A model generated the notes under the pieces. The model saw only the letters and a list, made by a program, of their open reading frames with translations, ran no database searches and was not told where the DNA came from. From a bacterium ADurb.Bin374 (GTDB lineage Bacteria > Riflebacteria > Ozemobacteria > Ozemobacterales > Ozemobacteraceae), in NCBI GenBank assembly GCA_002068715.1, contig MWAR01000501.1, positions 1 through 7,104 on the forward strand: 7,104 nucleotides of DNA, in the 5' to 3' direction. Each line of letters starts with the position of its first letter. Within the stretch, counting starts at the first letter, position 1. A program made the translations under genes and the position numbers. Below, in pieces: positions 1 to 7,104 of the stretch.

Positions 1-1203
1 GTCCATCACGCCCGCCGCGAACGCCGCGACGATGCCGGCTTCGATATCCCCGTTCCCGAGCCTCTCGACGGCATCCATCACCGTGCGCACTTCCTTTTTG
101 ATGATCTCGATCTCTTCCTGGAGACGCGGGCTCATCACGGCGCGCTGGTCCGCCAGCATGTTCACGACCTGGCGGGTCGCCTTCAACCCGGCGGCGTTGG
201 CCTCCTTCGTGGGGATGCCGCGCGCCTCGTGCGGGGTTTTCACGATGACCTTCGTCGCGCCCGACAGGGCCGCGACGGTCGAGCCCCAGCAGATGACCGA
301 GAACGCTTTCGACTCGTCCTCGGGGAAGCCGCCCATCCACTGGTGGAAGACGGTCGTCAGATCGTAGCCGGAGAAGCCGGCCTTCTTGAAATACTCGTCG
401 GCCAGCTCCCGCAGCGAGAGCATCGCCGCGACGTCCTGGATGAAGTTGCCGCCCTGGCCGTAACCCAGGGTCAGGGAGCGGACCCCCTGGGCGAGGGCCA
501 GCAGACCTTCGACGATGGCGACGACGTGGCTGATGAACGGCGGCACGAGCGTCCCGGTCAGGGGGCCGAACGGCTCGCGGTTGATGCTGACCCCGTTCTC
601 CTCATACCAGCCGACGAGCCGGTCGACGTATTTCCAGTCGTCGATGCTTTTCTGCAACGGCACTTTCTTTGCATAGGGGATATTATATGAAATGCCGCCG
701 CCTTCGTAGCTCGTGAAGCCGGCCGCCAGGGTGATCTCGGCGAGAAGCCGCGCGTCGGGCGTTCCGTGCCGTACCTGGACGGGGGATTTGAGCGCCTCGA
801 CGACCTGCCGGCAGCCGGCGAGTCCGTGGTTGACGGCCGGAAAACCGTTCAACAGCGATGTTCCGGCCTGAAGCGACTTCTCGATTCCGTTGGCCGCTTC
901 CTGATACCGGTTCTGGCGGGTGTATGCGTCGATCGTGGTCGGCAGCAGATCCGCCTCGCCTTCGGTCTCGAGATACTGGAGGAGCTTGATGTGTTCGTTT
1001 ACGAGCGCGACGCCGGCACGCGGCTGCAGGAGGGTGCGGCCCTGCTCGTTCGCCTTTTTCATGGCGAGGGCGAAGTTGCGGGCGGGCGGCAGGGTTTTCT
1101 GATACGCCAGCGCCTCGTCGAGACTCAGGCCTTTGCCCGTCGGCCACGTGGCGAGCACGGTGTCGCGAATCGAGAGAAAGTCGTTCCAGGTGAGAGAGTT
1201 CAT
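1..1203 (-). CDS. glmE: Glutamate mutase epsilon (large) subunit, C-terminus cut by window edge
   Basis: This is the catalytic subunit of methylaspartate (glutamate) mutase. With GlmS and adenosylcobalamin it interconverts L-glutamate and (2S,3S)-3-methylaspartate by a radical carbon-skeleton rearrangement. The frame is open from the ATG at 1203 to base 1 (401 codons, no stop). The family is about 483 residues, so roughly 80 C-terminal residues lie outside the window. The match to the Clostridium MutE sequence, as I remember it, is continuous: QPRAGVAL (61-67), [16 protein letters not shown] (90-100), [12 protein letters not shown] (145-156), [13 protein letters not shown] (167-179), [15 protein letters not shown] (208-222), [11 protein letters not shown] (284-294) and [18 protein letters not shown] (322-339). 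The substrate-binding arginines (R62, R96, R145), the catalytic glutamate (E167) and both tyrosines (Y173, Y177) align at a constant offset of four. The enzyme should therefore be active. The start overlaps the glmL stop as ATGA. An AAGGAG motif (1220-1215) lies 11 bases upstream, rather far, so translational coupling to glmL is likely. Confidence 0.97.
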
Positions 1204-2678
1204 ACCGGGTCAGGCTCCTTGTGAAGTCTGTGTGATGGTGTGTCGTGAACGGTCTGCGGAAACCGTACCAGCGATTGGCCGGCAAGTGTCGCGGCAAGTT
1301 CAGGATACGGTGAAGCGAGGTTGCCTAGCAAGGGAAGAAGCCCGTCACGGTCGCGCATGATACGCCGTGCCGTCGGAAGCAGCGGCATTTTCCCGTCGGC
1401 CGTGGGGGCTGATGAGGCGGCAAGCGCGTCGAGATACAGCGTCACGTCGCCGGACGATGCCAGATATCCTCCAGAGCCGATGATGGTGCGGATGCGGCGC
1501 AGGTCCTTGCCGCGCTGAAGAAACACTTTTCCGCCGGGTGTCCAGCTTTCCTCGACGGTTCCGGCATGTCGGGCGATCGAGAGGGAGACGCAAACGGCCG
1601 CAAGAACGCGGTCCAGAGCTTCCTGCCGGGGTGTCGAGGGAAGCCGGCCGGGGGTTTCGGAAATCTCACCGACCCAGGTTTCAAGCTCGAGAGCGTCTAT
1701 GCCGGCATCGGCACGAAGACTCTCGAGGACCGGGCCCCCCGACGTGAGAACGGAACGTGCGCTGACGCGCATGCCGAGATCGCCTTCGACGGTGCGTTTG
1801 ACGGCCGGCTCCGGCAGTCCGCGCAGGATGACGTTTCCGTCGGCGGCGGCCGGTTCGCTGTTCGTATACACATCGGTCGTGGCTCCGCCCATATCGATCA
1901 AAAGCGTGTCGGCCCAGTCCGGAGAGACGGCGGCAAGTCGTTCCACCAGTTCGAGAACGGCGCGAGGCGTGGGTTTCGGTTCGGCACCGAACGCGTCGAT
2001 GACGCGACGCAGGCCTTTTCCCTCGATCAACCGGTGGAGAAACAGGTCACGAATGCATATGCGCGCCGGCTCGATGTTCAACTGGCCGAACTCGGGCATC
2101 AGGTTCTCGGTCACGATCAGCCGACCCTCCGGAAACATCGTCGGGATCTCGTGGGCGACGGAGCGGTTTCCCGCGAAAAGGACTGTCGCTTCGAGGCCGG
2201 CTTCGGCCAGACGCCGTGCGTTTTTCCGGACATACGCGGCGTTACCGCCGTCCGTGCCGCCGGCGAGCAGGATGATGTCGGGCCGATCGAGGCGCATTCG
2301 TTCGATGTCGTCGGGAGTGAGCTCGAACGCGTAGGCCCCCGAGACCTTGCCGCCGGCCGAACAGACCGCCTGCCGGGCGACGCTCAGGGTCAGCTCGGGC
2401 ACGAGGCCGACCGCCGTCACCTTCAGGCCGCCCTTCGCCGAGCAGGAAAGGTGTGCCGGGAGATCGAGCGACACGCCGTCGAGATCGTCGAGCCCTGCGG
2501 CGACTCTGCTCGGAAGCAGACCGTGCAGAACACGGGCGACGCCACGTGGGAGATGATCGACGGTCGTAGGCGTCGAGGCGCGTGCAAGGATGGATCGGCC
2601 GGAAAGGTCGACCAGCGCGCCCTTGGTATATGTCGATCCGATGTCGATCGTCAGAATTCTGTTGTCAGTGCCTGGCAT
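1200..2678 (-). CDS. glmL: Glutamate mutase accessory protein GlmL (MutL-type ASKHA ATPase)
   Basis: This is the accessory protein found between the two glutamate mutase subunit genes in many bacteria. The family has the ASKHA (actin/Hsp70/sugar kinase) ATPase fold and is thought to help assemble or reactivate the B12 enzyme; its exact role is not firmly established. At 492 residues it is slightly longer than the usual roughly 460. Visible motifs are phosphate loop 1 DIGSTYTKG (12-20), CSAKGGLKV (79-87), [10 protein letters not shown] (137-146), phosphate loop 2 [13 protein letters not shown] (260-272) and the adenosine-site motif IGSGGYL (400-406). A short tail after about residue 470 has no recognised motif. 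I chose the ATG at 2678. An in-frame TTG at 2690 would add four residues, and an in-frame stop at 2705-2703 rules out anything longer. Neither start has a good ribosome-binding site, which is odd next to the strong one before glmS. The TGA stop overlaps the glmE start (ATGA). It is not the DNA mismatch repair MutL. Confidence 0.94.
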
Positions 2679-2820: not shown

Positions 2821-3246
2821 TCAGCCTTTCCGGCCGGCCTGTTCGATGTCTTCGCGGATGAGCCTGGTGGCCTGTTCGAGGTCCGCGTCGGGGGGGAACA
2901 CCCGGTCGTAGCCCATGGCGATGAACTTCTTTTCGACCGCATCGAAGGGGGTTTTCCCAACCACCAGGTTGCCGCCCACATACAATCTGATGTGGTCCAG
3001 TCCTTTTTCGATGCACTTTTCCCTCAGACCGGCGCAGTCGATCTCGCCATGTCCGTAAAGAGAGCTGACGAGGATCGCCTTCGCGTCGGTCTCGATTGCC
3101 GCGCTGATGAACTCCTCCTGGCTGACCATGACGCCGAGATTTGTGACTTTGAACCCCGCCTGCGTGAAGAACGCGTCGAGGATCTTGTTGCCGACGGAGT
3201 GGCAGTCGAAGCCGATGACGCCGAGAACGACCGGTATGGGCTGCAT
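2821..3246 (-). CDS. glmS: Glutamate mutase sigma (B12-binding small) subunit
   Basis: This is the cobalamin-binding subunit of methylaspartate mutase; it carries adenosylcobalamin to the GlmE barrel. The 141 residues match the usual length of about 137. The protein is a single B12-binding Rossmann-like domain. The N-terminal strand [18 protein letters not shown] carries the base-off/His-on motif DxHxxG (D14, H16, G19), with H16 the expected lower cobalt ligand. It is followed by [12 protein letters not shown] (36-47), [11 protein letters not shown] (61-71), [10 protein letters not shown] (89-98) and GYDRVFPP (112-119). Near-identical blocks occur in the Clostridium MutS protein as I recall it. 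The ATG at 3246 is preceded by a strong Shine-Dalgarno AGGAGGT (3258-3252) at good spacing, only 16 bases after the gntR stop. It is the second gene of the operon. It is unrelated to glucosamine synthase GlmS or mismatch repair MutS, which share the names. Confidence 0.97.
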
Positions 3247-3262: not shown

Positions 3263-4261
3263 TTATGCGGCGGAGCGCTGGAGCAGGGCAGCGGTCTTTT
3301 CCTCGATGTGGAGGAGAGAGCCGCGCTCGATCTGGTATTCGAATCGGACGAGCTTGCCGCCGCGCCGGGTGAACCCGTTCAGTGTTTTCGAAACCTGGCT
3401 GGAAAGCGGAAAGGCATGACCGGGGGGAAGGATGATCGCCTGGACAGTGTTTGTAAGACGGGCGAGGGCGCCCGGTTGGATGTCGAGCATGGCCGGAACA
3501 CGTTCCGGCGCGATGCCGATGCGCCTGAGGTGGATCCTGATGATGTCGTGAAACCGGCTGCTGCGGCAGATCACCGCGATCTTTCCGGCGCCGGCGAGGC
3601 CGGCCAGGCCCATGAGCGTCTCGGGGCTCGGCGAGACGGCAACGGGAAGGAGGCGTTCGGCGATGCCCGGAGCGAGATCGACGAGCTCTTCGGCGTGCGT
3701 CGTGGTCGTTATGATCAGGGCGAACGGCTCGAGTCGGGCAGCAGTATCACCGGCCCGTCGCAGGTCGTCCAGGAGGAACGTCCTGAGTTTCAGCTGGGAG
3801 AGCCGGCCGAGTTGCTGTTCGAAGATCGACAGGGCTTCGGGGTTGCAGTCGACGGCCGCGATCGGAAATGTCGCCCGGAGCTTCGTCCGGCGTTCCAGCT
3901 CGGCATCGAGCAGATACTCAATTTCCTCGCAGGTGTACCGCAGGGCCTCGAGTTCGTCGACAAGGTGCTGAATCAGCGTCTGGGCCTTGCCCTGGCGGGG
4001 TGGTGCCGCGGGATCGGCCTGGTCGGCGACGAAGGTGCCCCGGCCCTGGGTGATCGTGAGCAGTCGCTCGCGGGCGAGCTCCTCGTAGGCCTTCTTGACG
4101 GTCCCGCGGGCGAGGTCAAGATGTCTGGCAAGTTCGCGCTCGGGCGGCAGTCTGTCGCCCGCCAGGAGCTTCCTTTCCCTGATGAGCTGCCTGATTCGTT
4201 CTATCAGCTGGCGGTATGCCGGCAGATCCCGGCCCTTGTCTATCGCGAACTCGCCGAACAT
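3263..4261 (-). CDS. GntR-family transcriptional regulator with atypical sensor domain
   Basis: This 332-residue regulator is the first gene of the glutamate mutase operon. Residues 13-79 form a typical GntR winged helix-turn-helix: [14 protein letters not shown], then [28 protein letters not shown] with the recognition helix at about 51-62, then the wing GRGTFVAD (73-80). A charged helical linker (about 90-127) follows. The C-terminal part does not look like the FCD, UTRA or MocR aminotransferase domains. It alternates hydrophobic strands and helices in two apparent lobes (about 130-205 with IAAVDCN and [14 protein letters not shown]; about 215-310 with GKIAVICRS and [14 protein letters not shown]), resembling a periplasmic-binding-protein or PrpR-N-like sensor. 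That fold is my inference. The ATG at 4261 has GAGGGA four bases upstream. A promoter and palindromic operator sit directly in front, so autoregulation is likely. The effector is unknown; glutamate, methylaspartate or mesaconate are guesses from context. Confidence 0.93.
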
Positions 4262-4273
4262 CTGATCCCTCGA

Positions 4274-4287
4274 TTGGTATAGACCAA
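4274..4287. promoter_or_regulatory. Palindromic operator in the gntR leader
   Basis: TTGGT-ATAG-ACCAA is a perfect 5-bp inverted repeat with a 4-bp centre. The half-sites follow the ...GT / AC... pattern typical of GntR-family operators. It lies between the predicted transcription start (about 4291) and the gntR Shine-Dalgarno, roughly +4 to +17. A bound protein there should block transcription, which fits autorepression by the adjacent regulator. The binder is inferred from position and pattern only. Confidence 0.65.
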
Positions 4288-4293
4288 GTTGAT

Positions 4294-4307
4294 TTGGATT
4301 ATACCTT
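4294..4307. promoter_or_regulatory. Second, weaker operator-like site over the -10 box
   Basis: TTGGATTATACCTT matches the main operator at 9 of 14 positions, keeping TTGG and ACC at the same spacing. Its centre is exactly 20 bp from that of the main palindrome, about two helical turns, so two dimers could bind on the same face of the DNA. It covers the TATAAT hexamer, so part of the match may simply be the -10 sequence. Confidence 0.35.
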
Positions 4308-4326
4308 TTCTATCGGCCGACGTCAA
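4298..4326 (-). promoter_or_regulatory. Sigma70-type promoter of the gntR-glmSLE operon
   Basis: On the minus strand TTGACG (4326-4321, five of six consensus) is separated by exactly 17 bp from a perfect TATAAT (4303-4298). The predicted transcription start is near 4291, giving a leader of about 30 bases before the gntR ATG. It is the only convincing sigma70 promoter I see in the window and it points into the glutamate mutase operon. The overlapping operators suggest a strong promoter that is normally held down. Confidence 0.78.
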
Positions 4327-4328
4327 TG

Positions 4329-4376
4329 GAACCGACAGATGTTTTTCCGGCAGTTCCCGGCAGTTCCCGGCGGTTC
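4329..4376 (-). other. Possible weak structure at the end of the malic enzyme transcript
   Basis: Perfect 6-bp inverted arms GAACCG (4329-4334) and CGGTTC (4371-4376, overlapping the malic enzyme stop) enclose several self-complementary CCGG tetramers that could form inner stems. On the transcribed (minus) strand the structure is followed by no T run; the only homopolymer is an A5. It therefore does not qualify as a standard rho-independent terminator. Transcripts from the kinase-malic enzyme unit may end by another mechanism or read through into gntR. Confidence 0.25.
4347..4376. repeat. Three tandem 10-bp repeats (CCGGCAGTTC)
   Basis: Three head-to-tail units read CCGGCAGTTC, CCGGCAGTTC and CCGGCGGTTC on the plus strand; the third has one change and overlaps the malic enzyme stop codon. 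The period equals about one helical turn. The array lies 21 bp upstream of the -35 box of the gntR promoter, where an activator or a structural element could act. Slippage with no function is equally possible. Confidence 0.7.
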
Positions 4377-5673
4377 ACCGCGCGAAGCGGGCTACGAGTC
4401 GGCGGGCGGCGGAACGGAGTCGACGGCGATAGGCGTCGAGGTCGACGATCGGGGCACGGGCCACGCCGCTTTCCATCGCGGCGGCCGCGACGGCCGGGGG
4501 GACGGTTTCCAGGAGGCGCGGATCGAAGGGCTTCGGAAGGAGGTAGCCGCGGCCGAACGTCAGACGGTTCAATCCGTATGCTTTCAAAACCGCGGCCGGG
4601 ACGGGGCGCCGTGCGAGGTCCGCCAGCGCCTTGCTTGCGGCAAGCTTCATTTCGTCGTTGATCGTTGAAGCGCGCACGTCGAGCGCGCCCCGGAAGAGGA
4701 ACGGGAAACCGAGCAGGTTGTTCACCTGGTTCGGCAGGTCGCTTCGGCCCGTGGCGATGACGGCATCCGGCCTTGCCTCGCGTGCCGCGTCGTATTCGAT
4801 CTCGGGCACCGGGTTCGCAAGCGCGAAGATGATCGGGTCGGGACGCATCTTCCGGAGCATCGCTGGTGTCACGATGCGGGGTGCCGAAACGCCGATGAAG
4901 ACATCGGCGCCTTCCAGGGCGTCGCCCAGAGTTCCAGCTGGCCGCGAAGACGCAAGGGAAGACAGCCACCGGTGCATGCCTTCTCTGCGGCCTTTGTATA
5001 CGATGCCATGTATATCGCAAAGAACGAGATGGCTCCGCCTGACGCCGATCCTGAGCAGATGCCGGGCGACGGCGATGCCGGCCGCGCCGGCGCCGCTGAT
5101 CGCGACCCGCGCCTCGTCGGGTTTCCGGCCGGTGAGATGCAGGGCATTCATGAGGGCTGCAGCCACCACGACCGCAGTCCCGTGCTGGTCATCGTGAAAG
5201 ACGGGAATTCCCATGCCGGCTCGCAGGCGTTCCTCGATTTCGAAGCACTCCGGTGCCTTGATGTCCTCGAGGTTGATGCCGCCGAAACTCGGTTCCAGAA
5301 GAGAGACGGCGTCGCAGAACGCCGCGGGGCACTCCGTGTCGAGTTCGAGATCGACGGCGTCGATGCCTGCAAACCGTTTGAACAGGAGGGCTTTCCCTTC
5401 CATGACTGGCTTGCCGGCGAGCGCGCCGATGTTTCCGAGACCGAGCACGGCGGTCCCGTTCGTGATGACGCCTACCAGGTTGCCGCGGCCCGTATATCGC
5501 CACGCGGCCTCGGGGTCGTCCCGTATGGCGAGACAGGGGGCTGCCACCCCCGGAGTATAGGCGAGGCTGAGATCGTTCCCGTCGGCGCAGGGTTTCGACG
5601 GAACGATCTCGATCTTGCCGGCCGGCTCGGATTCGTGAAGGCGCAGGGCTTTGGGTGCAAGGGGATTCTTCAT
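4375..5673 (-). CDS. NAD(P)-dependent malic enzyme, short MaeB/YtsJ-like form
   Basis: This cytoplasmic enzyme oxidatively decarboxylates L-malate to pyruvate and CO2, reducing NAD(P)+. The 432 residues fit the short bacterial form; there is no C-terminal phosphotransacetylase-like domain. Motifs in order are NDLSLAYTPGVAAPCL (33-48, catalytic Y39), NGTAVLGLGNIGALAGKPVM (72-91), EGKALLFKRFAGIDAVDLEL (92-111, catalytic K94), INLEDIKAPECFEIEERLR (133-151), IPVFHDDQHGTAVV (156-169, metal-binding aspartates 161/162), the nucleotide-binding loop GAGAAG (194-199) with D220 at the end of the next strand (hinting at NAD rather than NADP), FALANPVPEI (283-292) and TGRSDLPNQVNNLLGFPFLFRGALDVRA (308-335). 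The ATG at 5673 is chosen because homology starts there, GAGGA (5685-5681) lies seven bases upstream, and it overlaps the kinase stop as ATGA. Upstream in-frame starts would lie inside the kinase gene and lack homology. Confidence 0.96.
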   Translation of the reverse strand: MKNPLAPKALRLHESEPAGKIEIVPSKPCADGNDLSLAYTPGVAAPCLAIRDDPEAAWRYTGRGNLVGVITNGTAVLGLGNIGALAGKPVMEGKALLFKRFAGIDAVDLELDTECPAAFCDAVSLLEPSFGGINLEDIKAPECFEIEERLRAGMGIPVFHDDQHGTAVVVAAALMNALHLTGRKPDEARVAISGAGAAGIAVARHLLRIGVRRSHLVLCDIHGIVYKGRREGMHRWLSSLASSRPAGTLGDALEGADVFIGVSAPRIVTPAMLRKMRPDPIIFALANPVPEIEYDAAREARPDAVIATGRSDLPNQVNNLLGFPFLFRGALDVRASTINDEMKLAASKALADLARRPVPAAVLKAYGLNRLTFGRGYLLPKPFDPRLLETVPPAVAAAAMESGVARAPIVDLDAYRRRLRSAARRLVARFAR

Positions 5674-7104
5674 GCGGCTTTCCTCGATGGGTCGTTTCCG
5701 AAAATGCAGGAGAGGGCTTTCTCGACGTCGGACAGCGTGAACGGCTTGCTCAGGGCATGGCAGAAACCGTAGGCCGCATGATCGGCCATGACCGGGTCGT
5801 TCGAATACCCCGAGGCGACCATGATCCTGAGCCCCGGTTCGAGCTCGTGCAGCTTTTCGGCGGTTTCCAGTCCGCCCATGCCGCCCCTGATCGTCAGGTC
5901 GAGAATCGCGAGTTGAAACGGAGCTCCCCCGGAAACGGCTTTTTGAAACTCCGCGATGGCTTCGCTCCCGTCTGGGACGCAGACGCACTGGTATCCCAGG
6001 TGCCGGAGAATTCCATGCATGACCGAGAGGATGGCTTTTTCATCGTCCATGATCAGGATTTTTCCGCCGTCGCCACGCTTGACGGGCGGGCGCTCTTCGA
6101 GATCGTCCATCTGGAAATCCGTTGCGGGCAGGTATACCCGGAAAATAGAGCCGGCGCCTGGAGTCGAGTCGACGGTGATATGACCCCCGTGCTGGTCGAT
6201 GATCGAGAATACAGTCGAGAGGCCGAGACCATGGCCCGTCTGCTTGGTCGTGAAAAACGGGTCGAACAGTTGCGGAATGACTTCTGGCGGGATGCCGCAC
6301 CCTTCGTCCGATACGCAAATTTCGACATACTTCCCCGGAGCAAGGATGTTTCCTCGCTTCATGCACGATTGTCCCACGATTTTCATTCCCTCGCTCGATA
6401 CGTCGATATTGGCCGCCGAAATGCAGATCGTGCCGCTCGACTTCATCGACTGCCGGGCGTTGATGACCAGATTCTGGATGGCCTGACCGAGCTGACCCTC
6501 GTCGACTTCCAGGAGGCGGAGGTCTCCGGGAACATCCAGACGAAGCCTGATGGGGCTCCCCGACATCACCAGCCTGGCGGAATCTTCCAGAAGGTTGCGG
6601 ATCGACTGCGCACGCTTCTGAGGCGTTCCACCGCGGGCGAAGGTCAGGAGCTGCCTCGTCAGACCGCGCGCAGTCGCGATCGAACTTTCCGCCTCGACGA
6701 GGTAGGTGAACGCCTTCTGTTCCCTGCTCATTTCCGCCTTCGCGAGGGAGACATGCCCAAGAATACCAGTAAGAATATTATTGAAGTCGTGGGCGATGCC
6801 TCCGGCGAGGATGCCGAGGGATTCGAGTTTCTGCGTGCGTTGAAGCTCACGTTCCATTTCCTCGCGGATGGTGACATCCTGGAAAACGATGATGGTGCCG
6901 ATCTGCGTGCCACTGCCATCAAGGATCGGCGCCTTGGTGCTGGCAATGCGATGCAGGGCCCCGTTGCGGTCGATCATGCTGGCGATCTGTCTGCCGGAGG
7001 ATGTGCCGGACGTGAGTGAGAGAACCTCGGAAAGCGGCCGGGCGGCGGCTTCGGCCATGTTCCAGCCGGTCAGCTCCGATGCGATGCGGTTCATCATCGT
7101 CACC
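5670..7104 (-). CDS. Hybrid sensor histidine kinase (PAS-HisKA-HATPase-REC), N-terminus cut
   Basis: This is a signal-transducing histidine kinase with an attached receiver. The frame is open to the window edge. A GTG at 7103 is only the first full codon, because the visible sequence begins in the middle of a PAS domain (MNRIASELTGW, then KAPILDGSGTQIGTIIVFQDVT to about residue 78). More sensor sequence must lie outside. Numbering from that codon: HisKA H-box GILAGGIAHDFNNIL with phospho-acceptor H105; N-box QAIQNLVINARQSM (208-220, N211/N215); G1 DEGCGIP (266-272); F-box LFDPFFTTK (279-287); G2 TGHGLGLS (289-296); then a receiver from about 347 with acidic pair D353/D354, phospho-acceptor D402 (LDLTIRGGMGG), S431 and K453 (SKPF). 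All catalytic residues are present. There is no membrane segment in the visible part and no output domain, so a partner protein is expected elsewhere. The stop overlaps the malic enzyme start (ATGA). Confidence 0.95.
   Translation of the reverse strand, partial: VTMMNRIASELTGWNMAEAAARPLSEVLSLTSGTSSGRQIASMIDRNGALHRIASTKAPILDGSGTQIGTIIVFQDVTIREEMERELQRTQKLESLGILAGGIAHDFNNILTGILGHVSLAKAEMSREQKAFTYLVEAESSIATARGLTRQLLTFARGGTPQKRAQSIRNLLEDSARLVMSGSPIRLRLDVPGDLRLLEVDEGQLGQAIQNLVINARQSMKSSGTICISAANIDVSSEGMKIVGQSCMKRGNILAPGKYVEICVSDEGCGIPPEVIPQLFDPFFTTKQTGHGLGLSTVFSIIDQHGGHITVDSTPGAGSIFRVYLPATDFQMDDLEERPPVKRGDGGKILIMDDEKAILSVMHGILRHLGYQCVCVPDGSEAIAEFQKAVSGGAPFQLAILDLTIRGGMGGLETAEKLHELEPGLRIMVASGYSNDPVMADHAAYGFCHALSKPFTLSDVEKALSCIFGNDPSRKAA

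Follow-up and report, generated by a model that had tools for sequence, protein, structure and literature searches.

How transcription of the glutamate mutase genes is controlled is the question raised by a locus in which the gene for a GntR-type regulator stands directly ahead of them. The methylaspartate route is among the classics of anaerobic biochemistry, and we asked whether this regulator could govern the mutase genes together with its own, and from which DNA site. The window analyzed here is the whole stretch of 7,104 nucleotides of contig MWAR01000501.1 (bacterium ADurb.Bin374, Ozemobacteraceae). Its genes are the following:

1..1203, minus strand: glmE, catalytic subunit, cut by the window edge (401 residues seen); profile match.
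1200..2678, minus strand: glmL/mutL, mutase accessory protein, with a TTG start at 2690 in the open reading frame list; profile match.
2821..3246, minus strand: glmS, glutamate (methylaspartate) mutase B12-binding subunit; profile match.
3263..4261, minus strand: gntR, 332 amino acids, GntR winged helix plus C-terminal alpha/beta domain, the proposed reader of O1/O2; Pfam and relatives' labels.
4375..5673, minus strand: malic enzyme gene, upstream of gntR and in the same direction, outside the claimed regulated unit; profile match.
5670-7103, minus strand: sensor kinase with receiver domain; open reading frame and domain matches.

The order gntR-glmS-glmL-glmE, with the three mutase genes in sequence, identifies a glutamate mutase operon. 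Among the window proteins, GlmS scored 212 bits (cut-off 110) and GlmE 619 (cut-off 390), while GlmL, at 448, fell below its equivalog cut-off of 475 and reached 390 against a GlmL-family model with a cut-off of 204. On the minus strand, no terminator-like site was seen between the malic enzyme gene and gntR (4262-4374), so that read-through from the malic enzyme gene into the glm operon is possible. The legend of Fig. 4 in PMC4682846 names a decarboxylating malate dehydrogenase among the genes given. At the end of the malic enzyme gene (4351-4380) lies a short direct repeat, cagttcccgg twice and then cggttcaccg.

The gap upstream of gntR contains a predicted promoter and two candidate operators:

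4321..4326, minus strand: -35 hexamer TTGACG; promoter pattern match.
4298..4303, minus strand: -10 hexamer TATAAT, 17-bp spacer, predicted transcription start near 4291; promoter pattern match.
4274..4287, both strands: candidate operator O1, TTGGTATAGACCAA on plus (TTGGTCTATACCAA on minus), 6 of 7 pairs, centre about +11; motif match.
4294..4307, both strands: candidate operator O2, TTGGATTATACCTT on plus (AAGGTATAATCCAA on minus), centre 20 bp upstream of that of O1, over the -10 box; motif match.

The preliminary description of this DNA had read TTGACG-17 bp-TATAAT on the minus strand, and we recovered this promoter at 4326 to 4298 with 11 of 12 positions matched, as the better of two promoter-like matches in the window (shuffled windows gave a mean of 1.1 matches at 9/12 or better). 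O1 has no mismatch to TTGGTnTAnACCAA, a pattern that, with up to three mismatches, occurs four times in the window against 0.45 expected, a number reached by none of 200 shuffles. The description of O1 as a perfect palindrome had to be rejected, as the A and G at positions 6 and 9 do not pair, leaving 12 of 14 bases paired. The second site was found where it had been described, as a 9/14 copy centred exactly 20 bp upstream (centres 4280.5 and 4300.5) and covering the -10 box. Compared by eye, it agrees with O1 at 9/14 positions in the orientation first used and at 10/14 on the other strand, and it matches 8 of the 10 fixed positions of a looser pattern, TTGGnnTAnnCCAA. O2 is a weak site and in part the -10 box itself. 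A search of literature full text for the exact O1 14-mer returned no match. One further operator-like sequence, ATGGTATAAACTAT at 2774-2787, lies with three mismatches in the 142-bp gap between glmS and glmL, where it overlaps a weak promoter-like match on the plus strand.

The regulator and the enzyme travel together. The closest named relatives of the window GntR (76% identity) belong to Candidatus Ozemobacteraceae, and in a first scan of named genomes six of ten full-length relatives stood beside glmS (L001-L003, L006, L009, L010), four not (L004, L005, L007, L008). Searches around five loci gave GntR matches in 6/39 genomes of the phylum of the Riflebacteria locus (E up to 1e-15), in 12/297, 3/296 and 9/288 genomes of the phyla of the Acidobacteriota, Spirochaetaceae and Verrucomicrobia loci (E up to 1e-30 in each), and in 22/247 genomes of Anaerovirgula's order (E up to 1e-20, with L009 as query). 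Across these differing thresholds, 49 of the 52 matches had glmS in the roughly 1.5 kb of flank that was fetched, where L112 is counted through L009 and five of the 49 are the centre genomes, chosen for having a gntR-glmS pair; the three matches with no glmS in the fetched flank were L103, L128 and L130. Among genomes of Anaerovirgula's order that lack a GntR match, glmS occurred in 1 of 80 (the first 80 of 225 in handle order). Of the 39 genomes of the Riflebacteria phylum, 12 carry glmS, six of them without this GntR; hence, the enzyme is not everywhere in need of this regulator. Downstream of glmE, a methylaspartate ammonia-lyase gene follows in L001, L003 and L009, in L009 with a fumarase-type alpha subunit after it.

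The site recurs with the regulator gene. For 51 gntR-glmS loci, the window among them, we compared the 150 bp that precede gntR; these loci represent 50 distinct contigs because L010 and L119 are one contig, kept twice in the counts; L081, L082, L083, L084 with L090, and L112 were left out as the same places as L001, L006, L002, L003 and L009. With the window left out and the one contig in twice, 23 of 50 loci contained TTGGTnTAnACCAA with at most 2/12 mismatches, compared to 1.3% of 2000 dinucleotide-preserving shuffles and to near matches in 7/70 regions upstream of other GntR genes (L011-L080, whose similarity is mostly confined to the winged helix). The looser TTGGnnTAnnCCAA, a form written after the loci had been seen, was present with at most 2/10 mismatches in 31 of the 51 loci, versus 0/7 in the 150 bp before glmS where this GntR is absent (Fisher p 0.003; the seven are six, of 13 glmS loci, from genomes without this GntR, plus L168). 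Footprinting of this gap in relatives had been set beforehand as a refuting test, and the site proved to be kept. When loci were grouped at 60% identity, 16 of 23 clusters had the site, and since the loci are related all these counts are less than independent. Sites stand before gntR in Riflebacteria, Verrucomicrobia, Spirochaetaceae and Anaerovirgula records and in relatives of these groups and of an Acidobacteriota genome. Judged from these related loci, the sites exceed chance, and we consider it very likely that the O1/O2 region is a genuine regulatory site.

At the 2-of-10 threshold, 20 of the 51 loci are without a site. L010/L119 have a full palindrome, ATGGACTGGTCCAT, but miss the threshold, and the best site of L089 has three mismatches. 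In L123, L125-L127 and L132, where gntR follows other genes, the 150 bp before it hold no site, and L109, L110, L121, L122 and L133 are siteless at the threshold without explanation.

The sites are probably read by the adjacent GntR, because they recur upstream of this gntR and are missing ahead of the seven glmS genes without it. This assignment, already made in the preliminary description, gains further support from the 19-20 bp pairing described below. The near matches in the 70-region control indicate a site type shared with other GntR genes, as would be expected if another regulator, e.g., an unlinked NagR-type GntR, read the site, or if it acted as an RNA element; we consider this extremely unlikely, as the site follows this particular gntR across distant groups.

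We then evaluated the spacing of the pair by fixing the best site in each of the 31 loci, shuffling both flanks, and scoring second sites at up to 4/10 mismatches. A second site lay exactly 20 bp away in 12 cases versus 1.8 expected, and 19 bp away in 5 versus 1.2 expected. Such pairs occur in 15 loci and 11 of 23 clusters, window included; in eight loci, again with the window, both members have at most two mismatches. Relative to the predicted promoter, the pair is centred at -8.5 and +11.5 in the window, near -19 and +1 in L001, L002, L104 and L105, and at +1.5 and +21.5 in L107. The spacing of 19-20 bp is thus kept while the place on the promoter shifts, an observation that speaks for two adjacent proteins rather than for a side effect of how the promoter is laid out. 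It might be that GntR binds O1 only, O2 being a -10 region that resembles a half-site (GGTATAAT) and the 20 bp following from promoter geometry. The overlap of O2 with TATAAT would fit this, as would the upstream element of L003, L088 and L089, in which TTGGTA runs into the predicted -10 box and the right half is poor, and the loci nearest Anaerovirgula, which manage with a single site such as AATTGGACTAATCCAAT. Set against the constant spacing, and against the presence of both members at up to 2/10 mismatches in L001, L002, L104, L105 and L107, we regard binding at O1 alone as unlikely. The arrangement of two sites is not universal, with single sites or direct repeats in other loci.

The position of the sites bears on the direction of control. 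A site centre falls between -20 and +15 in 21 of the 30 loci that have both a site and a predicted promoter (the promoters in this comparison being best-scoring matches without shuffle control), which is the placement that repression would need. Some GntR-type proteins both repress and activate, as with GabR, an autorepressor and activator in PDB titles, and in L086 the best site is about 85 bp upstream of where transcription is predicted to begin. That GntR is mainly an activator, or a dual regulator, of the glm operon is nonetheless quite improbable given this placement and the near-consensus promoter of the window.

The protein itself has features that would suit a reader of TTGG half-sites. 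Its residues 16-78 match the PF00392 winged helix at 61.9 bits (cut-off 27), which places it in the GntR superfamily. NagR reads GTGGTCTAGACCAC with Arg38, Arg48 and Gly69, according to the parts of PMC4333415 on these contacts. Matched by motif position without superposition, the equivalent residues are R42 (51/51 loci), R52 (48/51) and G73 (51/51). Among 58 relatives, seven of them without glmS in the flank, E41 together with R52 coincided with a site in 29/46 and V41 in 1/10, a comparison confounded by several V41 loci that have gntR inside a gene cluster. L110, a gntR-glmS locus, has Pro at position 52 and no TTGG-type site.

The C-terminal domain does not match the HutC, FadR or MocR effector types. 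The full protein matched only PF00392 (E 0.001), and residues 87-332 matched no family (E 10), hence no UTRA-type (HutC) domain; for an FCD-type all-helical (FadR) domain, there was no Pfam family and alternating strands and helices were predicted; and MocR-type models matched only residues 5-99, far below their cut-offs, with no aminotransferase-like domain. PF27163 is the C-terminal domain in precomputed labels of the protein's relatives, and hmmscan of the window protein gave no match to it. A fold search with the whole protein was filled by the winged helix, while the C-terminal part alone yielded weak matches to two-lobed folds, glutamate racemase and maleate isomerase. Sequence matches to solved structures do not extend beyond residue 134, with a single exception at E 1.1; by this measure, the effector domain is one without a sequence-detectable solved relative. 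Within it, C139 (49/51), N140 (48/51), and E142, H189 and S234 (51/51 each) are conserved, which suggests a shared ligand. The domain may bind an amino dicarboxylate, which would fit the weak racemase and isomerase matches and the Cys-Asn and Thr-x-x-His residues. A GntR-type DNA-binding domain is joined to a LacI-like sensor in AraR.

Taken together, we consider it quite probable that GntR is an autorepressor of glutamate fermentation acting at O1/O2, where we infer binding, dimers, repression, cooperation and ligand from the comparisons above. A GntR dimer would sit on each 14-bp site, where the two guanines of every TTGG half-site would be read by Arg42 and Arg52, in the manner of Arg38 and Arg48 in NagR. 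Two helical turns from each other, the two dimers would mask the -10 box together with the start region and so prevent transcription of gntR-glmS-glmL-glmE, the gene of the regulator itself among them. Binding of a small molecule linked to glutamate degradation to the two-lobed C-terminal domain would free the DNA, such that the B12-dependent mutase would be made when glutamate is to be fermented. Counting against this reading are the siteless loci, the weakness of O2, the single sites of the loci nearest Anaerovirgula, several of which lie 30-65 bp past the predicted start, the T at position -7 of O1, where NagR contacts G, and a perfect intergenic site (L157:1659-1672, G259) before a TonB-receptor-like reading frame with no evident glutamate link.

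The operator varies among clades. L006 and L091-L096 have no good inverted site and instead TTGGTATAT-type direct repeats, which lie within or next to the spacer between -35 and -10. Another Clostridial group has gntR behind other genes, with no TTGG site directly before it; in L128, the preceding genes include one for a fumarase-type beta subunit. Eight upstream regions inspected for variant sites gave nothing convincing in five. In L166 (reverse strand, 2068-2100), TTGATATATATCAA and TTGATATAATACAA lie 19 bp apart before the first gene of the GntR cluster, and position 52 of the regulator, equivalent to the Arg48 with which NagR reads the inner guanine, is Gln, a site/residue match that is suggestive only. 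L161 and L165 have TTAGTATATCCTAA and TTGATATAATACAA 68 bp apart between divergent genes. DNA specificity may have shifted, from TTGG to TTGA, where Glu41 or Arg52 is replaced.

Other candidate targets appear in some lineages. In L004, a GntR relative (32% identity) is divergent from the histidine ammonia-lyase and urocanate hydratase genes (hutH-hutU), and on their side of the gap TTGACT-17-TATAAT is followed by two sites 19 bp apart (1 and 3 of 10 mismatches); L005 is arranged likewise, although its contig ends before the neighbour. In a Spirochaetota-phylum genome (G533), a perfect site (L153:1681-1694) lies 59 bp before a reading frame, at least 749 residues long, that contains a Glu/Leu/Phe/Val dehydrogenase domain. 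Among 22 GntR-bearing genomes, this protein had one weak partial match beyond its own genome (G004, E 6e-21), so that the dehydrogenase-like target does not generalise. Across nine genomes, TTGGNNTANNCCAA gave 22 forward matches versus 33 for the backward control, i.e., no genome-wide enrichment. Three of the 22 are gntR promoter operators; eight of the other 19 were inspected, of which five lie inside reading frames (two of these inside gntR), one at a reading-frame edge (L152) and two are intergenic (L153, L157). The second TTGG-TA-CCAA sites inside gntR, both from the Riflebacteria phylum (L150:2954-2967 and L151:2676-2689), are 540 and 524 bp from the promoter operator and could serve looping or be forced by the coding sequence. 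A 27% GntR relative in Clostridium (L007:7319-8536) adjoins an aconitase X gene, a hint that the regulator family may serve further pathways. Only tentatively do we propose that one regulator family forms a widespread amino-acid fermentation switch, for glutamate mutase and, in some lineages, for histidine degradation or a glutamate-dehydrogenase-like gene, with the TTGG half-site kept, the geometry changed by clade (inverted at 20 bp, direct repeats at 10 bp, or single), and shifts in specificity and sensor as noted.

In its kind, a probable GntR autorepressor of a catabolic operon, the system is ordinary yet widespread, with a sensor domain and an operator variation that we did not find described; its recurrence beside the same regulator gene in distant bacterial groups looks like a widespread dedicated switch. 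Open full-text literature, which leaves out most subscription papers, yielded no operator, ligand or mechanism for a glutamate mutase GntR and no characterised regulator, operator or inducer of the methylaspartate route. The conserved regulator and operator offer a direct test of control of that route, help to predict glutamate-fermentation genes in uncultured lineages, and form a natural case for comparing the ways in which a single regulator family copes with differing operator geometries.

Among known systems, a GntR is labelled a putative regulator of glutamate degradation in a 2015 paper (PMC4682846) on the basis of gene order in several bacteria, its gene standing in Clostridial clusters that also encode glutamate mutase, methylaspartate ammonia-lyase and mesaconase; it is named there without operator, binding or ligand, and it may be of the same family as the window GntR. 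With NagR/YvoA of Bacillus subtilis (GntR/HutC), which acts at dre sites, the window GntR has the base-reading residues in common, whereas Pfam finds no UTRA-type effector domain in it, O1 has T at position -7 where the crystallised dre palindrome has G, the pathway is another, and there are often two sites. E. coli NanR, as described in parts of PMC8012715, binds a (GGTATA)3 operator with units in close register, at which several dimers bind cooperatively through a 32-residue N-terminal extension. The units 10 bp apart in L006 and L091-L096 resemble that operator, but, unlike in NanR, the winged helix of the window GntR begins near residue 15 and its effector domain is not of the helical FadR type.
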